Assembly (NCBI GenBank): GCA_016213775.1
Contig: JACQZR010000161.1
Location: 1-57,206, forward strand
DNA: 57,206 nucleotides
Reading direction: 5' to 3'
Source of the DNA: Acidobacteriota bacterium
GTDB taxonomy: Bacteria; Acidobacteriota; Terriglobia; Bryobacterales; Bryobacteraceae
Made by a program: the position numbers and the translations under genes. The notes beneath the pieces are model-generated. The model did no database searches, was not told the DNA's origin, and saw nothing but the letters and a program-made list of their open reading frames with translations. Positions 48,741 to 57,206 of the stretch are shown here, piece by piece (the stretch's first letter is position 1; every line of letters begins with the position of its first letter).

Positions 48741-50462
48741 ATGCTCGGCCTTGTTGTTGGGCTTGTCATCCCCGCCGCCGCCGTCGAACTCTCTCCCTCC
48801 GCCATGGTGCCCCTGTCGCTTGGCAGCACCATTCGGTGGAACGCGCGAAGCTCGTCTCAGGATCCCGCCTGGTACCGCTTCCGAGCGCGCCAGGCCGGAG
48901 ATGCCTATCGCATCATAAAGGACTTCGGTCCCGATTCCTCGATGGACTGGACGCCCACCGGTCACGAAGGCAGCTACGAAGTGGAAGTCACGGAACGGAA
49001 TCTCGAAACCGGCTCGGTCTCCTCCGCGAGCACCTCGTTTCAGATTCTTCCGCATGCGGTGGATGGTCCGGTTGTCAGCCCCACCACCCATCCGCTGGTC
49101 TTCCTTTATAGCGCTCCAGCCTGTCCCGCCGGACAGCGCATGCGGGTGCAGTTTCGCGTCCTCGACGGACGGCCATCCTACACCTCCTACAAACCATGTA
49201 CGCCTGGCTTCACAATGAACTTCCACCTGGGCGGAATCTACCCTGAGACGCGCTACTATGCCCGCCATATCCTGGACACGGGCAAGGAACTGCACACTGG
49301 ACCTGAGGTGGCTTTTGAGTCCGGCCGAATCGCTGCCATCAACATGCGCCCGGAGGTGGTTCAGCAACTTCGGTCCGAGACGCGGTTTCCGTTTTTGCTC
49401 AGCACCGCATCCGGAGCGGGAACGGTTGCCACCGACCTTTCCGGGCGCGTTGTCTGGAACGCGGCGCCAGGGCTCGTCACCTTCCTCACGCGCATGGAGA
49501 CCGGTGGGAGCTTCTGGGGTTACCTTCAGCGTCCGCGCCAGGGTCCCGACGGGCAGCGCATCCGCCGCTTTGATCTCACTGGCATGATTCTTCAGGAGAC
49601 AAACGCCGCCCGCGTGAATGAGCAACTGCGCCTTATGGGCAAGCGCGAAATCGGATCCTTCCACCATGAGGTGACCCGCCTCCCCAACGGCCACATCGCG
49701 GCGCTCGCCAGTATCGAACAACCCGTCGAGAATGAGGACGGAGAGATGGTGGATGTCGTCGGTGACATGATCATCGTGCTCGATGACGATCTGCGCATCG
49801 TTTGGGTTTGGGACAGCTTCGATTGGCTCGATAACACGCGCAAAGCAATTCTCGGGGAAACCTGCCGGAATGCCGGAGCCTGCCCGCCGCTCTACCTTGC
49901 CCCTGATGGCGAGGATTGGACGCACACCAATTCGATCTCGTACACTCCGGACGGCGATCTGCTCATCTCCATCCGGCACCAGGACTGGCTGGTGAAGCTG
50001 GCCTACCAGGACGGCAAAGGTGACGGCCACCCGGTCTGGTATCTTGGCGCAGATGGCGACTTCGCAGCCGACTCTGACGAGACAACTCCCTGGTTCACCC
50101 ATCAGCACGACGCCAACTTCCTGGGACGAAATCTAGTTGCGGTGTTCGACAACGGCAACACCCGCGTCACTCTCAGCGGCGGCGGCAACAGCCGCGGCCA
50201 GGTTTGGCAGTTGGACGAGGGCAACCGCCGCGCCACCCTCGTCCGCAATCTCGATCTCGGCGTCTACGCTGCCGCTCTCGGTTCCGCGCAGGATCTCGGT
50301 GATGACCACCTCCATTTCAACGCGGGCATCGTATCCGGGCCCGGAGGAGTCGAATCCCACTCTTTCGAGATTGACTCTAAGGGCAATATCGTTTACGATC
50401 TAAAGTCAAATTTGATTTTCTACCGGACATTCCGGGTGAGCGATCTTTACACTGCGCCTTAA
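48741..50462 (+). CDS. Exported arylsulfate sulfotransferase-like protein
   Basis: The 573-residue protein has a signal peptide (MLGLVVGLVIPAAAVELS), an N-terminal beta-sandwich and a six-blade propeller of the ASST type. Family histidines are visible in GSFHHEVTRLPNGH (308/309), DWTHTNSISYTPDGD (395) and WFTHQHDANFLG (454/456); R412 in ISIRHQDWL matches the conserved arginine. ASST enzymes move sulfate between phenolic compounds through a sulfohistidine, without PAPS. A cysteine-containing loop CRNAGACPP may form a disulfide. The next gene encodes a sulfatase, so the two enzymes may act on sulfated aromatics or glycans. Confidence 0.83.
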   Translation: MLGLVVGLVIPAAAVELSPSAMVPLSLGSTIRWNARSSSQDPAWYRFRARQAGDAYRIIKDFGPDSSMDWTPTGHEGSYEVEVTERNLETGSVSSASTSFQILPHAVDGPVVSPTTHPLVFLYSAPACPAGQRMRVQFRVLDGRPSYTSYKPCTPGFTMNFHLGGIYPETRYYARHILDTGKELHTGPEVAFESGRIAAINMRPEVVQQLRSETRFPFLLSTASGAGTVATDLSGRVVWNAAPGLVTFLTRMETGGSFWGYLQRPRQGPDGQRIRRFDLTGMILQETNAARVNEQLRLMGKREIGSFHHEVTRLPNGHIAALASIEQPVENEDGEMVDVVGDMIIVLDDDLRIVWVWDSFDWLDNTRKAILGETCRNAGACPPLYLAPDGEDWTHTNSISYTPDGDLLISIRHQDWLVKLAYQDGKGDGHPVWYLGADGDFAADSDETTPWFTHQHDANFLGRNLVAVFDNGNTRVTLSGGGNSRGQVWQLDEGNRRATLVRNLDLGVYAAALGSAQDLGDDHLHFNAGIVSGPGGVESHSFEIDSKGNIVYDLKSNLIFYRTFRVSDLYTAP

Positions 50463-50518
50463 CACCTCTGGTCTATGAGGGTATAGCGAGTTTCGCTCCC
50501 GCCGGAGCGGAGTCTCGT

Positions 50519-51913
50519 TTGCGCTGTACCCAACATTCGCACCGCCGGGATTTCTTCAAGCTTCTCGCTGGCTCAGCCGCGGGAAGCTTCCCCATTTCGT
50601 TATCAGCCGCGGCCCCTCCAAACATCGTCTTTATCCTGGCGGATGATCTCGGCTACGGCGACCTCGGTTGCTACGGCTCAAACGTGAGCACCCCGAACAT
50701 CGACAGTCTGGCACGTGACGGAGTCCTGTTCCGCCAATTCTGCGCGCCAAGTTCCGTCTGCTCGCCTTCTCGCGCCGGTTTCCTCACCGGCCGCTATGGG
50801 GTCAGGGCCGGGATACCCACGGTTATGAATCCGACCGATACCCATGGGCTCGGCGAGAATGAGACTACCATCGCGGGAATGCTCAAAAAGGCCGGCTACC
50901 GGACAGCCGCGATCGGCAAGTGGCACCTTGGCTCGCAGCAGCGGCATATGCCCTGCAGCCGCGGCTTCGATGAGTTCTTTGGACTTCCTTACAGCAACGA
51001 TCAGTCACCCAGCATGCTGATGCAGAATCAGGACGTGCTGGAGTCGCCCACTCGTCAGGATCTCCTCACCGAACGCTACACCAGTCAGACGATCGCCTTT
51101 CTCCGCCGCAACCGATCGAACCCGTTTTTCCTGTTTCTCTCGCACACTGCGCCCCACATCCCGCTGGTCCCTTCCCGTGGATTCCGAGGTAAATCCGGTC
51201 TTGGCGCCTACGCCGATGTGCTGCAGGAATTGGATTGGAGCGTCGGTGAAGTGCTGAACGAGCTTGCGTCATCCGGCATGGACAGGAATACGCTGGTGAT
51301 CTTTGCCAGCGACAACGGCCCATGGTTTCAGGGGAGCGCCGGCCGCACCCGAGGCCGCAAGGGGGATACCTTCGAAGGCGGAATCCGAGTGCCTTTCCTC
51401 GCTCGCTATCCCGGCCGCATCCCCGCAGGCAAGGTTGTCAACGGATTCGCCAGCGGGCTGGACTTGCTACCCACCGTAGCTCACCTCGCCAACGTCCAGA
51501 TTCCCAGCGGTTTGGATGGTGTTGATATCTGGCCGATGCTCACCACGGATAAGGCCAGCGTCGACCGTCCTGAATTCCTCTACTTCGACAACTACCACCT
51601 GCAATGTGTCCGGCTAGGCAAATGGAAGCTTCATCTGTCGCGCTACAACTCACCGGCCTACACTCCCGAACCGAAGGTCGGCCGGTTCAACCTTCCCTTA
51701 ACCAATCCGGAACTTTACGATATCCAATCCGATCCTGGCGAAAGCAGCGATATCGCCGACCAGCATCCTGAAGTTGTTGCAGACCTGCGGGAGAGGCTTC
51801 AGCGGGTACTGGCGGACATGCCGCAGAAGGTGCGCGACGCCTGGGAGGATACGATTAACCGTCGCGTGCACCAATCCGCGTCGGGGGCTTGGCCGGTTCC
51901 CGTGATCGAGTAG
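50519..51913 (+). CDS. Exported sulfatase with formylglycine motif
   Basis: The 464-residue protein is a type I sulfatase of the alkaline phosphatase superfamily. Calcium-binding Asp pair in FILADDLGYGD, formylglycine site C81-S-P-S-R with the GFLTGRYG continuation, IGKWHLG and the FASDNGPW strand are all present. The Cys must be oxidised to formylglycine by a maturase encoded elsewhere. The start is TTG, giving a twin-arginine-like signal (RRDFFKLLAGSAAG). The gap of 56 bp after the sulfotransferase gene and common orientation suggest one unit ending at the terminator at 51929. Confidence 0.88.
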   Translation: MRCTQHSHRRDFFKLLAGSAAGSFPISLSAAAPPNIVFILADDLGYGDLGCYGSNVSTPNIDSLARDGVLFRQFCAPSSVCSPSRAGFLTGRYGVRAGIPTVMNPTDTHGLGENETTIAGMLKKAGYRTAAIGKWHLGSQQRHMPCSRGFDEFFGLPYSNDQSPSMLMQNQDVLESPTRQDLLTERYTSQTIAFLRRNRSNPFFLFLSHTAPHIPLVPSRGFRGKSGLGAYADVLQELDWSVGEVLNELASSGMDRNTLVIFASDNGPWFQGSAGRTRGRKGDTFEGGIRVPFLARYPGRIPAGKVVNGFASGLDLLPTVAHLANVQIPSGLDGVDIWPMLTTDKASVDRPEFLYFDNYHLQCVRLGKWKLHLSRYNSPAYTPEPKVGRFNLPLTNPELYDIQSDPGESSDIADQHPEVVADLRERLQRVLADMPQKVRDAWEDTINRRVHQSASGAWPVPVIE

Positions 51914-51981: not shown

Positions 51982-52791
51982 TTACTTGCGGCGCCTGGTG
52001 AAGACGACCGCAGCCAGCGCTAAACCGGCAAAGGCGAACGTTGCAGGCTCGGGATTTTGCGTCGTATCCTGCAATCCACCGCCAAATCCGAGCGGAGTCG
52101 TGCTCTGTGACAGCAAAGCCAGGAAGAACTGCGTATTCGAGAATCCAGATGAGTTGTAGTTTGCATCCAGCGGGCTGCCAAACACATACACCTTGCCAAG
52201 TTGAACATTATCAACTCGGAAGAGGCCCGCCAGATTCCACAGCGGACTGCCGGCATTGGCCATGGCCGTCCCGCCCGTCAACGCCATACCGTTATAGAAA
52301 CTCATCCGCTGCCCGCTAAGACTGGCACCCACATCAGCACCATTCAGAGTCCCGGAAGCCTGCACATATGGGCTACCGATGGTGCTCGAGGTCACACTGA
52401 TGCTGGAACCGAGGGACGATAGAATTCCGTTCGCGTTCGCAACCGCTGAGGCTTGCTCAGCGAACAATAGGAGAATGCCACCTGACTGCACCCAGTTCAC
52501 CAATGCCGTAGCTTCAGCCGAGGAAAGCGAGGCGCTGGGATTCCTCATGATGAAAAAGTTGTTGTTCGACAGATTCGTCGCCGTGATTGCTTCACCGGAC
52601 TCGACTGTTGCATTCAAGCCAAGCGTCGCAGCCGAATAAATTGTGCCAAATGTTACGTTTCCCGCCCAGAAGGAGCTACTGCCCTCCCACTGTCCTACTG
52701 TCGCTGCTTGAGCTGCCCCCGCTAGCCCAAGTACGACTAGAGACAAGATCAGTTTAGTTAAACTGCCTCGTGCTCCGTACTTTACTTTCAT
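51982..52791 (-). CDS. PEP-CTERM sorting-domain protein
   Basis: The 269-residue protein has an N-terminal signal (LTKLILSLVVLGLAGAAQA) and a C-terminal tripartite sorting signal: NPEPATF, a hydrophobic helix AFAGLALAAVVF and TRRRK. In bacteria with exosortase such proteins are cut at the PEP region and join the exopolysaccharide or cell surface. The body reads like a DUF4350/ThuA-like fold (NFFIMRNPSASLSSAEATAL, VNWVQSGGILLLFAEQAS) rich in Ser, Asn and Gly. The true start is ATG 52791; the long upstream extension is not protein-like. It lies next to the SGNH-ACP-KASIII operon but has its own promoter. Confidence 0.85.
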   Translation of the reverse strand: MKVKYGARGSLTKLILSLVVLGLAGAAQAATVGQWEGSSSFWAGNVTFGTIYSAATLGLNATVESGEAITATNLSNNNFFIMRNPSASLSSAEATALVNWVQSGGILLLFAEQASAVANANGILSSLGSSISVTSSTIGSPYVQASGTLNGADVGASLSGQRMSFYNGMALTGGTAMANAGSPLWNLAGLFRVDNVQLGKVYVFGSPLDANYNSSGFSNTQFFLALLSQSTTPLGFGGGLQDTTQNPEPATFAFAGLALAAVVFTRRRK

Positions 52792-52871
52792 GATGTGCCT
52801 CCGAGTTTCGTCTTGATCAAACGAAATCTGCCTGCGGCCAAACATGCTTCTGGTCCGCCGCCAGTGTGTTA

Positions 52872-52963: not shown

Positions 52964-53899
52964 TCAGCCGAGCACTTCGGCCAGCAGACAGCCCCATTGA
53001 AGGCCAGCCCCAAACGCAGCAAAACAAACGAGTTCTCCAGCAGGTATCGAACCGGTTTCAAACCATTCGCGGGCCGCAATCAGCATCGATGCCGATGAAG
53101 TATTCCCGTACCGCCGGATGTTCGAGAAAAAGAGCGAGCGCTCCACTGAAAGGGCATCCGCAACCCGGTCCATCAGATTCTGGTTTGCCTGGTGCATGAG
53201 GAACGCGGAAACCCGATGCGAGGTAAGGCCTTGCCGCTCCAGTACCTGCTGGATAATGCGAGGCAGCTTACGAGAAGCCTGTAAGATGATTGAACGTCCG
53301 TTCATTGTGAAGTTCAGCCCATGGCTGAGCGCCAGATCTCCGCTGAACGCGCCGTCCGTGGCGATCCTGGAATCCACAACTTTCGCCAATCCTTTGCCCG
53401 GGTGGATCAGGCACGCTCCCGCCCCGTCTCCAAACAAGATCGCCACACCAGGATCCACAGGCTCTCTCCGGATCACCCGTGACATGATCTCGGTCCCAAT
53501 TACCAGGATCGGTCCCCGCGCCACCGCCAAGTCATTGGCAAGCGACATCGCCACCAGACTGCCCGCACTTGCCAGCGGAAGGTCCAGTGCAGGCGTGTCC
53601 GACAAGCCCAACCGGGAAGCGATTTCTGCCGCAGGGCCCGGAAACACCCTTGGCGAACTTCCCGAAGAAACCAGAATCATCCCTAGCTCCGAAGCCGAGA
53701 GTCCCGACTGGGACAAGCAATCCTGGGCAGCCTGAAATCCAAGATCTACCACGGATGTTTCATCGTCCGCCCAGCGTCGTTCCTCGATTCCGCACACATT
53801 CCAAATCCACTCTGGGGTTCGTCCGGTTAATGCGGACAACTCCTGGTTCGTTACCGTCCTCGACGGTAGCGCCGCCCCGAAACTGAGTATATAGGCCAC
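52964..53899 (-). CDS. KASIII-like beta-ketoacyl-ACP synthase with Cys-to-Ser active site
   Basis: The 311-residue thiolase-fold protein aligns with FabH throughout: an N-terminal ILSFGAALPSRTVTN, GIEERRWADD, the nucleophile region, GDGAGACLIHP, the His motif FLMHQANQNLMDRVA (H236) and the Asn motif RRYGNTSSAS (N266). At the nucleophile the family reads AACAG, but here it is LASAG, placing Ser111 at the catalytic cysteine. It is therefore unlikely to do normal Claisen condensation; it may transfer acyl groups through an ester, or only bind acyl-ACP. Two bp separate it from the ACP gene, its likely partner. Confidence 0.85.
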   Translation of the reverse strand: MAYILSFGAALPSRTVTNQELSALTGRTPEWIWNVCGIEERRWADDETSVVDLGFQAAQDCLSQSGLSASELGMILVSSGSSPRVFPGPAAEIASRLGLSDTPALDLPLASAGSLVAMSLANDLAVARGPILVIGTEIMSRVIRREPVDPGVAILFGDGAGACLIHPGKGLAKVVDSRIATDGAFSGDLALSHGLNFTMNGRSIILQASRKLPRIIQQVLERQGLTSHRVSAFLMHQANQNLMDRVADALSVERSLFFSNIRRYGNTSSASMLIAAREWFETGSIPAGELVCFAAFGAGLQWGCLLAEVLG

Positions 53900-53901
53900 A
53901 G

Positions 53902-54135
53902 TTACAGCAAGCCCTCTAGATAACTTTCGATGCGCTCGATCGTGTCAAACTTGCGCGGGTTCAGGTCCGAGTCCGGCACCCGGACATGGTACTCCACCTC
54001 CAGTGCGCTCACCAGGTCTGGAAGCGCGAAGGAGTCCAGAAGGCCTGAATCGAACAGCGATTCGTCCGAACCGGGTGTCACCTGCTTCTTCGCGACACTT
54101 TGTACAATCTCAAGGATTTTCGCTTGTCTGCTCAT
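53902..54135 (-). CDS. Acyl carrier protein
   Basis: A 77-residue acyl carrier protein with the phosphopantetheine attachment serine at S35 in GLLDSFALPDLV. The opening helix is KILEIVQSVAKKQ and the last is IERIESYLEGLL. The motif is DSF, as in D-alanyl carrier (DltC-like) and other specialised carriers, where primary fatty-acid ACP has DSL. It overlaps the SGNH gene by 26 bp and precedes the KASIII-like gene by 2 bp, so it is dedicated to this operon. Confidence 0.85.
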   Translation of the reverse strand: MSRQAKILEIVQSVAKKQVTPGSDESLFDSGLLDSFALPDLVSALEVEYHVRVPDSDLNPRKFDTIERIESYLEGLL

Positions 54136-55453
54136 TCGTGTTCTTACCGATCAACTCCTGGCGCACTTTGAGGAAGGTGCCGTAGTGTTCCATCAGGTCC
54201 TGAAATACCGCCCCACCGAGTATCCGGTACCCCGGAGCTGTAAAGTGGACAAAATCCCGCTGCGCGAGCCCTGAGTTGACCCATTGCCGCATGGAGCCCT
54301 TTCCTCCCATTTTCGCGCGCATGTCCCAGAATGCACAACCTGTCCCTAATGCCGCTTCCCGCTGACCTTCCACAATCCGGTCCACGTTGTCATAAATCCG
54401 CCACCCGGCACGCGTCCGGATGTATCGGTCCGGCGGGCCGATCACCAGAATCGAAGCAGTCGGAGCCATTTTGCGGATCCGGAAGATCAGGTTCGCGAAC
54501 ATTTCGCGGTACGATTCCTTCGTCCAGTCTTTGTTCCCCGCTTCGTTGGTGCCATAGGCAAGCACAATCAGGCTCGGGTTCCGCCGCGCCACGTGCGTTG
54601 CCAGCAGATTCTCCTCCCACTGAAACATGATGGATGCCTGTGCACCGTTGATCCCCAGCGTTTCATACGTAACGCCCTTGCCCTGCTCGGCAACCCAGCC
54701 AAACAGCCGGACCGGAGCCCGGTCCTGCGTCTCCAGTTCAAACCGGTGAAAGCCCGGAGTCGACTGGTACTTGAAGAAGCCGGGCGCTAAAGCCCCGTCC
54801 GTACTCACCGTTCCCACATTCACGCCATTATCGAAAAAGGAAATGCTGCCCCCGCCGGGTTGCTGAAGAAAATAAAGCTCCAGCCGTTCACAAGTCACTT
54901 CAAGCGCCACTTTTTCGCGCGCCCGCGACGCGGTGATGCTCACACCCGCCAATCCGTACATGCCATCGCCCGACCGCCCGAGCAATCCGTCACTGTACCA
55001 TCCGGAGCTCGCCGTACTCCGCGAGTCCATTCGCCGGAAGCTGTTCCACGGGCGACCCGCGTGTGTAAACCCGCTGCCGCCATCTCCAAACCGGTTCTGA
55101 AAAAGTGCCCGCAAAAACCCGGTCCATTCGTCCGCCGCGGTGTGCGAATCCCCGTAGTGAAGGATGTGCAGGCCACCGGACGTATCTGAACGCTGCTGCC
55201 TGTACAGTAACTCGAAAAACGGCACTAAAGCCGCGACGTTCTCCACCGGGACATCGCGCGCCATCGCCAGGTACTCCTCCACGCTGGCCGACGGCACCTG
55301 CGCTGCTTGCGCCTTGGGGGCGGTCTTTTTCTTTGCGGCCTTTACCGGAGTCTTCTTCCTGGTGGTCTTGGGTACCGCAGCGCCACCAGGCACAGAAACC
55401 AATGACGCCAGTGCGAACACTGCGAGAATCGCGCCAACCATGGGCAGGCGCAT
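54110..55453 (-). CDS. Exported SGNH/GDSL-family acyl esterase or transferase
   Basis: The 447-residue protein has a signal peptide (MRLPMVGAILAVFALASLVS), a Lys/Ala-rich linker (30-52) and an SGNH fold. The catalytic set is visible: GDS at 101-103 (ILHYGDSHTAADEW), Gly-Asn block YGTNE (300-304) and D400-x-x-H403 (DFVHFTAPGYR). An inserted beta-domain lies at about 175-260 (LELYFLQQPGGGSISFFDNG). SGNH proteins of this shape often accompany MBOAT acyltransferases in O-acetylation of surface polysaccharides. No MBOAT gene is seen up to the window edge. Confidence 0.82.
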   Translation of the reverse strand: MRLPMVGAILAVFALASLVSVPGGAAVPKTTRKKTPVKAAKKKTAPKAQAAQVPSASVEEYLAMARDVPVENVAALVPFFELLYRQQRSDTSGGLHILHYGDSHTAADEWTGFLRALFQNRFGDGGSGFTHAGRPWNSFRRMDSRSTASSGWYSDGLLGRSGDGMYGLAGVSITASRAREKVALEVTCERLELYFLQQPGGGSISFFDNGVNVGTVSTDGALAPGFFKYQSTPGFHRFELETQDRAPVRLFGWVAEQGKGVTYETLGINGAQASIMFQWEENLLATHVARRNPSLIVLAYGTNEAGNKDWTKESYREMFANLIFRIRKMAPTASILVIGPPDRYIRTRAGWRIYDNVDRIVEGQREAALGTGCAFWDMRAKMGGKGSMRQWVNSGLAQRDFVHFTAPGYRILGGAVFQDLMEHYGTFLKVRQELIGKNTNEQTSENP

Positions 55454-55454
55454 G

Positions 55455-56813
55455 CTAGTTTTTTGCCACCATCGTTTTCGTCTGCAGGAGCCGGAGCTTG
55501 TACTTGTTATAGCCGTCCAACAAGGCCTGATACAACAGTCCCCCTACGATTCTCGCACCTGCGGGCATCGGATGTATAAAATCCGCGCCCACCAGCCGGG
55601 GCTCGGCTTCGTACCATCTTCCCATGGTGCCCATTCCGCCCATCGCATCAAACGTGTTAAAGAAGGCCGTACCCGTGTCCTGCGCCACCCTCTGCTGAAT
55701 CGCCACCAACCGGGGGATCGCCGGGACCGTCCCAATCGCGCCGGTTGCCATTCGCTGACCACGGTCCATTGGACTCATAATCAATATCGATGTTTCGGGC
55801 ACCGCCTTCCGGATCCGCCGGACGATCTCTTTCATTTCTTTCTCCGACGTGAAGTCGACAAACTGTGGGTACATGCTCTCGTTGGTGCCGTAATTCACGA
55901 TCACCAGGTCGGGTTTGTAGTGCTGCAACTGCTCCCGCCAGTGCTCCTCGCCAAAGAATTTCGCAAGCACCGAAACGTAGGCGCCGTTCACGCCAAGGCT
56001 GTGATAGATCACCCCTGGGTCCGTTTTCTCTAACCCTACGCCGAACACTCGCACTGGCCCGCTCATCGCCTTCAGTTGAATATCCGCGGTACCCGCCGGG
56101 AGATCGAATGCTTCAAAACCCGACCCTCTTTCCCCATCGGTATTCACTGCGCCGAGATCACTCTCTCCGGCGTACACGCGCAACTGGCCCCCACCCGGCT
56201 GCCGCAAAAACGCCACTTCCACCCGGCGGTAGCTGAGGTCTTTCACACGGATCCGCGACGCCGCCCCAGGTCCGCCTCGAAAACTGACGCCGCCCAATCC
56301 ATACAATCCGTCTTTTACCCCCGACTGATTCGCCGGCTCGATCGTCCACCCCGACCCTTGCAAATCCAGCCCCTGATGCGCATACCAGGCCCACGGCTTC
56401 GCAATCAGGCAAAACCCATGCCCGGCATCGCCGAACTGTTTCTGCAACAGCTTCCGCACGTCGCTGGTAATCAAATCGGCCGTGGTTGGCGAATCTCCGT
56501 AGTGCAGAATCCTCACCGCCCCGTTGCCGCTCGCGGCCCGGTGCAGCCCTTTGTAGAAGTTGTCGAGCTGCCGGTTCGGATCGAGGAACGCGTGTTTCTG
56601 CTGCTTGTTCGGATCGGTCTCCGGCCGCAACCGTTGCTGCGCTTCCGCTTCGGGCGTCGCCGTCGGTTTCCTCTCGCTGAACTCCAGCACCGAGGGAATC
56701 GTTGTCCAGTCCAGTACTTTGTAGTTGTGCAGAACCGGCACGACGTCCGTCACGGCCAGATAGCCGAGGAACGCGAGAATAGTAACCGTCGTTTTCCTGG
56801 GGAAACCGAGCAT
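55455..56813 (-). CDS. Membrane-anchored SGNH-family protein, paralogue
   Basis: A 452-residue protein with one N-terminal membrane helix (TVTILAFLGYLAVTDVVPVL), then an SGNH fold clearly paralogous to the downstream gene. Matching elements are RILHYGDSPTTADLITSDVR (GDS 106-108), FGDAGHGFCLIAKPWAWYAH, YGTNESMYPQFVDF and the Asp-x-x-His site DFIHPMPAGARIVGG. Both copies keep all catalytic residues, so they probably differ in substrate or in the direction of transfer. The next gene starts 1 bp after its stop. It is the first recognised gene of the operon. Confidence 0.82.
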   Translation of the reverse strand: MLGFPRKTTVTILAFLGYLAVTDVVPVLHNYKVLDWTTIPSVLEFSERKPTATPEAEAQQRLRPETDPNKQQKHAFLDPNRQLDNFYKGLHRAASGNGAVRILHYGDSPTTADLITSDVRKLLQKQFGDAGHGFCLIAKPWAWYAHQGLDLQGSGWTIEPANQSGVKDGLYGLGGVSFRGGPGAASRIRVKDLSYRRVEVAFLRQPGGGQLRVYAGESDLGAVNTDGERGSGFEAFDLPAGTADIQLKAMSGPVRVFGVGLEKTDPGVIYHSLGVNGAYVSVLAKFFGEEHWREQLQHYKPDLVIVNYGTNESMYPQFVDFTSEKEMKEIVRRIRKAVPETSILIMSPMDRGQRMATGAIGTVPAIPRLVAIQQRVAQDTGTAFFNTFDAMGGMGTMGRWYEAEPRLVGADFIHPMPAGARIVGGLLYQALLDGYNKYKLRLLQTKTMVAKN

Positions 56814-57091
56814 GATTGATGAATATGGTTACCGGTGCAGCCCAACGGGAAACACCATTCTATCCATAGTACTCAACTGCGCGCCGAATCCCTACCAGAT
56901 GCAATCATTCTCCTCCGATAGGCTGACGAGTTGCGAGACGTTCGGGTGTTTCAGGGCCAAGGAGGGAAGCTCCCGATAAAGCGGTCGATCTCCGAGTAAT
57001 GCACGGTGGCAAGGTTGCCGGTCATGATCACGCCCGGCGCGACCCATGTTAGGCTCGCAAGTTGGAGTCCGGGAACAACACCAAAACTACG
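56814..57091 (-). other. Intergenic region with broken coding-like fragments
   Basis: No intact gene is present. On the minus strand two adjacent frames read like protein: GVIMTGNLATVHYSEIDRFI (about 57035-56975), then LPSLALKHPNVSQLVSLSEE up to a TAG near 56900. This suggests a small gene with a frameshift, placed just after an antitoxin-like gene. I do not recognise it and a chance reading is possible. The promoter for the SGNH operon should lie in the last 80 bp. Confidence 0.25.
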
Positions 57092-57206
57092 TTACCGCGG
57101 CGGAAGCTCATCGTAAGCATTCATCTCGGGGCGATCCCAATCTTCTGTAAACTGGGCCAGCCGATGGCGCAGTCCCGCCGCTTGAGACTCGTCGATGCCC
57201 CTCTCT
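57092..57206 (-). CDS. Antitoxin-like small protein, C-terminal end (partial)
   Basis: The minus strand is open from the window edge to a TAA at 57092-57094 and ends QFTEDWDRPEMNAYDELPPR. The pattern F-x-EDWD-x-PEM-x-x-YD is typical of the C-terminal tails of small antitoxins that precede PIN-domain toxins. Only 37 residues are visible. A toxin would be expected on the left, where only broken fragments occur. Confidence 0.5.
   Translation of the reverse strand, partial: ERGIDESQAAGLRHRLAQFTEDWDRPEMNAYDELPPR

Follow-up and report, generated by a model that had tools for sequence, protein, structure and literature searches.

A compact run of four genes in an Acidobacteriota genome probably belongs to a surface acylation pathway in which a membrane-bound O-acyltransferase (MBOAT) and SGNH-family proteins are fed by an acyl carrier protein (ACP), and in which a β-ketoacyl-ACP synthase III (KASIII), not a DltA-type ligase, would provide the acyl-ACP. 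The genes lie on contig JACQZR010000161.1 of assembly GCA_016213775.1 (Acidobacteriota; Terriglobia; Bryobacterales; Bryobacteraceae), analysed here as a window of 57,206 nucleotides (positions 1 to 57,206 of the forward strand), and they encode two SGNH proteins (SGNHa and SGNHb), a private ACP and a KASIII with serine in place of the catalytic cysteine. The full unit is MBOAT-SGNHa-SGNHb-ACP-KASIII, and it is split in the window genome. Its gene content, its linkage, the catalytic residues, the MBOAT motif, the private ACP and the matching KASIII and MBOAT trees can all be read from the sequence. The components and the general scheme have precedents; a carrier protein together with a ketosynthase in charging position outside Dlt would be new. 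We found no literature description of an MBOAT/SGNH operon with an ACP and a KASIII among titles and the opening lines of abstracts, subscription journals being mostly outside reach of this search.

Layout and recurrence of the unit

In the window, the genes form a minus-strand run, SGNHa-SGNHb-ACP-KASIII, from 56813 to 52964, and the contig ends at 57206. The features are as follows:

55455-56813, minus strand: SGNHa, 452 aa; Pfam Lipase_GDSL_2, 8.1e-16
54110-55453, minus strand: SGNHb, 447 aa; Pfam Lipase_GDSL_2, 8e-16
53902-54135, minus strand: private DltC-like ACP, 77 aa; Pfam PP-binding, 1.8e-7
52964-53899, minus strand: KASIII with Ser active site, 311 aa, GTG start; Pfam ACP_syn_III_C, 3.7e-25
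56814-57206, no strand: stretch from the SGNHa start to the contig end, the position of the MBOAT in relatives

SGNHa and SGNHb are separated by a 1-bp gap, SGNHb and the ACP overlap by 26 bp, and a 2-bp gap lies between the ACP and KASIII. Coordinates, gaps and Pfam scans thus bear out the tight packing of two SGNH genes, an ACP and a KASIII that had been put forward in a preliminary description of this DNA.

A survey of KASIII neighbourhoods, as that description had proposed, found a linked MBOAT directly upstream of SGNHa in 16 of 19 fetched relatives, judged by profile matches and PF03062 positions; the three others are L034, whose contig starts inside SGNHa, L036, whose contig starts before KASIII, and L048, which is split. 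The seven operon MBOATs of relatives that were scanned with Pfam matched PF03062 with E-values of 1.5e-24 to 1.2e-31, and only 0-8 bp separate the MBOAT stop from the SGNHa start in the nine relative loci measured. In the window, tblastn with three relative MBOATs detected no MBOAT (best E 0.29). The whole assembly of the window genome holds a single PF03062 match, its orthologous MBOAT:

contig C226, L052:8976-10442, minus strand: MBOAT of the window genome, PF03062

This protein shares 70-80% identity with the operon MBOATs at eight same-genus loci. No SGNH, ACP or KASIII match was found in the 19 kb fetched around it, and the 300 nt after it match no other fetched locus. The expectation that the MBOAT is absent from the window and encoded elsewhere was therefore correct, but the idea that it lies just beyond the contig edge was rejected for this genome: its orthologue was located on C226, and tblastn with three relative MBOATs gave neither an MBOAT nor a remnant of one in the 393 nt that precede SGNHa. 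These 393 nt match no fetched relative locus either. Because they precede SGNHa without an MBOAT, the break is not simply a contig edge, and it may possibly reflect a true rearrangement or a misassembly. A toxin-antitoxin remnant suspected by eye in 56814-57206 was dropped, as it had no Pfam support, and a promoter scan of the region, which was not informative, gave no sigma-70-like site.

The KASIII was searched for in 61 genomes, namely the window's own and 60 relatives, and was matched at E 2.8e-67 or better in 20 of them, its own included, with the best of the rest at 1.9e-47. In a draw of 396 genomes from the phylum, KASIII reached E 2e-72 or better in 13 (window genome included), and 13 further genomes gave matches at 3e-49 to 3e-45 that were FabH-like or Cys-type where examined; SGNHa was matched at E 1e-25 or better in 21. 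Linkage was counted beyond the window, over 38 loci with a KASIII of this family, of which 34 are Ser and 4 Cys. KASIII has an ACP no more than 1.2 kb away on its own strand in 36 of the 38, an SGNH gene within 8 kb in 33, and an MBOAT within 8 kb in 30, among which that of L227 is of another type and that of L226 is a contig-end fragment. Where linkage is missing, the locus is split, lies on a short contig or at a contig end, or belongs to genome G160. Two loci have no ACP, L036 at a contig end and the split locus L231, where an ACP match adjoins SGNHa on another contig. Eight have no nearby MBOAT: L034, L036, L083 and L084 are on short contigs or at contig ends, and L048, L085, L216 and L231 are split. 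The genomes of L034, L048, L084, L085, L216 and L231 contain a same-type MBOAT at another place; in the genomes of L036 and L083, no MBOAT of the unit type was found. The split genomes with an MBOAT elsewhere in the same genome are the window genome, G035, G348, G350 and G454. The conserved four-gene linkage, on which the preliminary description had made its proposal depend, thus recurs across the phylum.

Gene order varies between groups. MBOAT-SGNHa-SGNHb-ACP-KAS is the order in the window's family, split and cut loci aside, and in 6/6 loci of the same-class family f8. SGNHb-MBOAT-SGNHa faces ACP-KAS in G057, G218 and G236, and the order is SGNHb-MBOAT-SGNHa-ACP-KAS in G123, G135 and G398. 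Among the matches listed, the named records with the unit or a part of it are metagenome-assembled genomes of Bryobacterales, Bryobacter sp., Acidobacteriaceae and Acidobacteriales. Outside the phylum, no match at E <= 1e-50 was obtained in 195 genomes (phylum of G458, holding Myxococcus locus L138) or in 337 genomes (phylum of G459, holding Verrucomicrobiota locus L152), searches run without a positive control, so that absence is not shown.

Catalytic residues and motifs of the five proteins

The window KASIII carries Ser111 (codon 53567-53569), within an ASAG motif, in place of the FabH Cys; His236 and Asn266 are kept, and the HQAN and GNTSS motifs are intact. It scores below the NCBIfam FabH cut-offs, and its best PDB matches are FabH. 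A KASIII tree was built from 72 proteins (33 Ser rows, 4 Cys rows and 35 FabH rows; residues below in E. coli numbering). L036 and L051, contig-end or partial and both also Ser, stand outside the tree and the 33-row count, and FabH rows L176, L177, L181 and L184 as well as L023, L024 and L027 were left out of it. The 33 Ser rows form one clade (100/99) and the four Cys rows another (100/98), and both are split from the 35 FabH rows by a branch supported at 100/99.

Residue 112 is Cys in 35/35 FabH rows, Ser in 33/33 Ser rows and Cys in 4/4 Cys rows, and His244 and Asn274 are kept throughout, in 72/72. Arg249, invariant in the 35 FabH rows, is Asn in 32 of the 33 Ser rows (Val in one) and in all four Cys rows. 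Arg36 is present in 33/35 FabH rows and in 0/37 family rows (one Lys); Arg151 is present in 34/35 FabH rows, 7/33 Ser rows (Lys in 9) and 0/4 Cys rows; and Lys214 is replaced by Leu in 26/33 Ser rows and 4/4 Cys rows. Phe87, presumably a pocket residue, is kept in 26/33 Ser rows and in none of the four Cys rows, and Trp32 is kept in 30/33 Ser rows. Judged by these counts against FabH, the enzyme retains the His/Asn pair, has another nucleophile and lacks some basic residues found in FabH. We take Arg249 to be an ACP-docking residue of FabH; the loss of Arg249 and Lys214 would be fitting for an ACP partner other than that of FabH. In the available part of a published account, Arg36 of FabH is given as a substrate-positioning residue, and its His and Asn as stabilising the enolate from malonyl-ACP (PMC10054515). 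The KASIII of the sister loci L229 and L231-L233 falls in the same clade and is of Cys type; its chemistry may differ from that of the Ser type.

The predicted phosphopantetheine site of the ACP is Ser35 (codon 54031-54033) in a DSF motif, which is found in 37/37 related ACPs, whereas the AcpP of the window genome has DSL. The best NCBIfam match of the ACP is DltC (3.9e-11; 42.8 bits, below the cut-off of 68), and its best PDB matches are likewise DltC. Met39 of DltC, beside the modified Ser38, contacts AcpS and, in a model, DltB, according to the sections available of PMC9338922. Elsewhere, the window genome has an AcpP over the curated cut-off, adjoining a FabF-like gene (named by eye), and a separate Cys FabH. 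The operon ACP is therefore not the housekeeping one, and a general role in fatty-acid synthesis was rejected; the dedicated ACP supposed in the preliminary description holds.

For the MBOATs, a C-terminal FxYxxF occurs in 32 of 33 unit proteins, the exception being L226, a contig-end fragment ending FxYxxY, and also in 12/12 other MBOATs read alongside. In PatA, the acyl group is carried on the Tyr of this C-terminal motif, as stated in the accessible text of PMC12148441. The two groups differ in a second motif. GG[NS]R after RDY is present in 0/35 unit-type MBOATs versus 13/17 others with a readable motif. The 35 comprise 32 plus L249, L250 and L251, these three being classed by score and identity; the 17 comprise 12 hand-picked proteins (10 with GG[NS]R) and those of five other fetched loci (three with it). 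L227/L255 (G160) were counted among the others by their place in the tree, though an ACP-KAS pair lies about 3 kb away, and three weak MBOAT matches gave no readable motif. In the second MBOAT of G018, at L078 (G018:C21), the loop is LPG-like and GG[NS]R is missing. The nearest solved structure of the unit MBOAT is DltB, and the DltB segment aligned to the loop has residues spaced like those said to touch DltC; such contacts are modelled in the part of PMC9338922 available. From this match of positions, the GG[NS]R region appears to be where DltB docks DltC.

In a tree of 44 MBOATs, from which fragment L226 was left out, the 32 unit MBOATs form one clade (100/97), within which the Ser/Cys split of KASIII is repeated (Ser side 96/77, Cys side 100/97). 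The MBOATs of G068, G206 and G379 branch just outside this clade and adjoin two SGNH matches; that of G068 has GGNR, and none of the three loci gave an ACP or KASIII match.

SGNHa and SGNHb match each other's orthologues at about 28-36% identity, with E in the window's genus mostly between 1e-40 and 1e-55, in agreement with the paralogy proposed earlier. Both have GDS and DxxH blocks and a hydrophobic N-terminal stretch, which by eye is a hydrophobic helix in SGNHa and a signal-peptide-like start in SGNHb. The catalytic residues of SGNHa are Ser108 (56490-56492), Asp411 (55581-55583) and His414 (55572-55574), invariant in 14 aligned rows; in its alignment, GDS stands in 17 of 18 rows and GES in one. 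Those of SGNHb are Ser103 (55145-55147), Asp400 (54254-54256) and His403 (54245-54247), invariant in 18 aligned rows. By sequence, both are nearest to Ape1 of Neisseria meningitidis and Campylobacter jejuni, and SGNHb matches 4k3u at 2.5e-27 in phmmer. The AlphaFold2 model of SGNHa (pLDDT 80) has N. meningitidis Ape1, 4k3u, as its best Foldseek match (TMt 0.83), and that of SGNHb (pLDDT 82) matches 4k3u at TMt 0.85-0.86; the five best fold matches of both proteins are 4k3u and 8gkd/8gld (TMt 0.78-0.86). The PatB structures 8TLB, 7TJB and 7TRR are not among the best 50 fold matches listed for either protein. The Gly of block II, a block assigned by eye, is invariant in both (G277 of SGNHa in 14 rows, G270 of SGNHb in 18 rows). 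Two Ape1-like SGNH genes also adjoin a membrane gene in L234 (G399) and L235 (G375), which we take, by eye, to be AT3-like; no ACP or KASIII match was found in the stretch fetched there.

Candidate pathway and its alternatives

Acyl loading on the ACP, export and transfer to a glycan would follow from family knowledge and from the motif patterns. In the pathway we favour, whose cytosolic and periplasmic components the window would encode, KASIII(Ser) would charge the private ACP, at its phosphopantetheine, with a short acyl group, probably acetyl; the acyl-ACP would dock at the cytosolic face of the MBOAT; and the MBOAT would shift the acyl moiety onto the tyrosine within its own C-terminal FxYxxF, on the periplasmic side. 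SGNHa, with its N-terminal helix as anchor, would then accept the acyl group on its Ser and pass it to a glycan, possibly peptidoglycan, and SGNHb would either strip the acyl group again or serve as a second transferase. SGNHa is proposed as the receiver because it is seemingly anchored and adjoins the MBOAT, SGNHb is a putative esterase or second transferase, and peptidoglycan as the acceptor is weakly suggested by the predicted Ape1 fold. Transacylation is the favoured first step because a Ser-type KSIII, DpsC, acylates itself and passes the acyl group to its ACP, as reported in the available part of PMC12664062. We lean slightly towards a more specific version, in which a Ser-KASIII that lacks some basic residues of the FabH surface charges a private DltC-like carrier; this carrier, in place of CoA, would feed a PatA-type MBOAT with a fused acyl-Tyr motif, and the loss of GG[NS]R would mark the change of donor from CoA to ACP. 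MBOAT/SGNH pathways other than Dlt are described as working without a carrier protein in what is available of PMC12148441. If the favoured pathway is true, carrier feeding is not confined to Dlt, several Acidobacteriota groups are an exception in which a ketosynthase-fold enzyme replaces DltA, and acylation of the envelope or of exopolysaccharide is predicted in these soil bacteria. It would also mean that one MBOAT lineage contains a natural switch from CoA to carrier, in which the docking loop, the replacement of Cys by Ser and the direction in which acyl groups flow are directly testable.

The unit resembles several known systems in part. Like Dlt (DltA-DltB-DltX-DltC-DltD, teichoic acid D-alanylation), it combines an MBOAT, an SGNH protein and a small carrier protein, and among solved structures its ACP is nearest to DltC and its MBOAT to DltB. 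Unlike Dlt, it has a KASIII in the operon and no DltA over the cut-off of model TIGR01734 in any of the 27 genomes with the unit; its acyl-Tyr motif is part of the MBOAT itself, where Dlt has it on DltX, and its SGNH proteins are Ape1-like. With PatA-PatB-Ape1, the Gram-negative OAP system of peptidoglycan O-acetylation, it shares an MBOAT with C-terminal FxYxxF, two SGNH genes and, by prediction, an Ape1 fold with inserted beta domain in both SGNH proteins, but it adds the ACP and KASIII, and both SGNH proteins keep Gly where PatB has Ser/Asn in block II. DpsC, which primes daunorubicin synthesis, likewise has a KASIII fold, a Ser nucleophile and a cognate ACP; it differs in its Ser-His-Asp (Asp302) as against the Ser-His-Asn of the unit, a comparison made with its description in the available part of PMC12664062, and in belonging to a polyketide cluster rather than an envelope operon. 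FabH has the same fold, His244 and Asn274, from which the unit KASIII departs by Cys112 to Ser, Arg249 to Asn, the loss of Arg36 and mostly of Lys214, and a separate clade. AT3-SGNH systems of the OatA type have a cytosolic acyl donor, a Tyr relay and an SGNH transferase, as outlined in the text available of PMC12148441, with an AT3 protein where the unit has an MBOAT.

Several observations weigh against the favoured pathway. The His/Asn pair that FabH uses on malonyl-ACP is kept in every row of the tree, and the analogy with DpsC is not exact, since DpsC has Ser-His-Asp and the KASIII here a full His/Asn pair. Acyl-CoA as the direct substrate is weakened by the loss of Arg36 in 37/37 family rows and of Arg151 in most, and Ser is not obligatory, since Cys stands in four rows of the KASIII clade, of which three are next to a cluster and one is split. 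The role of SGNHa as a transferase can only be provisional, because both SGNH proteins resemble Ape1, whose family is one of esterases, and retain Gly in block II. As for the loop, it follows the clades, and its difference is thus not independent evidence. Moreover, GG[NS]R is missing from MBOATs without a known linked ACP, namely those of G206 and G379 (both with a long insert), G026:C3 (GGNQR) and G018:C21 (LPG-like). In seven genomes, the window genome, G035, G348, G002, G454 and G457 among them, the MBOAT is off the ACP-KAS contig. G160 (L227) has an ACP and a Ser-KASIII with no SGNH match nearby, and the sole MBOAT near this pair, about 3 kb away, is of GGNR type, which weighs against the docking idea if that MBOAT is the partner. 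Finally, AMP-ligase matches below the cut-off occur in 27/27 unit genomes, so that a distant ligase is possible; none within 30 kb of the unit was seen among the matches listed for these genomes.

The conserved His/Asn pair also leads to the alternative that deserves most attention. KSQ loading domains decarboxylate malonyl-ACP, and KASIII(Ser) could act in the same pathway as a malonyl-ACP decarboxylase, a housekeeping transacylase loading malonyl on the private ACP to yield acetyl-ACP. We consider this unlikely but worth serious attention: the pair persists in 72/72 rows while the nucleophile is Ser in 33/33 Ser rows, and no family row retains Arg36 and only a minority Arg151. On the other side, Trp32 is kept in 30/33 Ser rows, DpsC provides a precedent for a Ser KSIII that transfers an acyl group to an ACP (PMC12664062, available part), and no Ser-type decarboxylase of KASIII fold was noticed in the cited literature, in which no dedicated search for one was made. 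A condensing KASIII, with a longer or beta-keto acyl chain as the transferred group, would agree with the condensing-enzyme fold and with the full Cys-His-Asn triad of the sister Cys-type rows. We hold it to be very improbable, given that Ser replaces Cys in 33/33 Ser rows, that the run from SGNHa to KASIII contains no additional gene in the window and that no recurring extra enzyme was noticed in the gene tables of relatives, whose neighbours were not family-scanned throughout. Phe87, which we assume to line the pocket, is also kept in most Ser rows (26/33), though in no Cys row (0/4).

Other alternatives detach the ACP-KAS pair from the acyltransferase. PatA takes acetyl-CoA directly, as the available part of PMC12148441 states, and the MBOAT and SGNH proteins of the unit might do the same, leaving the neighbouring ACP-KAS with another task, such as lipid or secondary-metabolite priming. 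The separate contig of ACP-KAS in G035 and G348 and the distant MBOAT of the window genome would suit such a division. This reading is nevertheless rather improbable: both parts stay together despite shuffled gene orders in distant groups, the split genomes checked still contain both halves, the KASIII and MBOAT trees have a common Ser/Cys split, and GG[NS]R is found in 0/35 unit MBOATs and 13/17 others. We give least credence to a cluster that chiefly removes O-acetyl groups by two Ape1-like esterases, the ACP-KAS linkage being incidental. Both SGNH proteins are indeed nearest to Ape1 by sequence and fold, yet the conserved MBOAT with its acyl-Tyr motif is by family an acyl exporter, in terms of the family account available in PMC12148441.

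Neighbouring genes

A PEP-CTERM protein with a weak DUF4350 match is encoded directly downstream of KASIII, and further genes follow on the opposite strand:

51982-52803, minus strand: PEP-CTERM protein, weak DUF4350 match
48741-51913, plus strand: arylsulfotransferase (ASST, PF05935), then sulfatase (Pfam)

The PEP-CTERM protein may belong to the neighbourhood of the unit, because a homologue adjoins KASIII in 9 of 10 same-genus loci. The ASST and the sulfatase beside the acylation operon are possibly a pair for sulfate transfer and removal.

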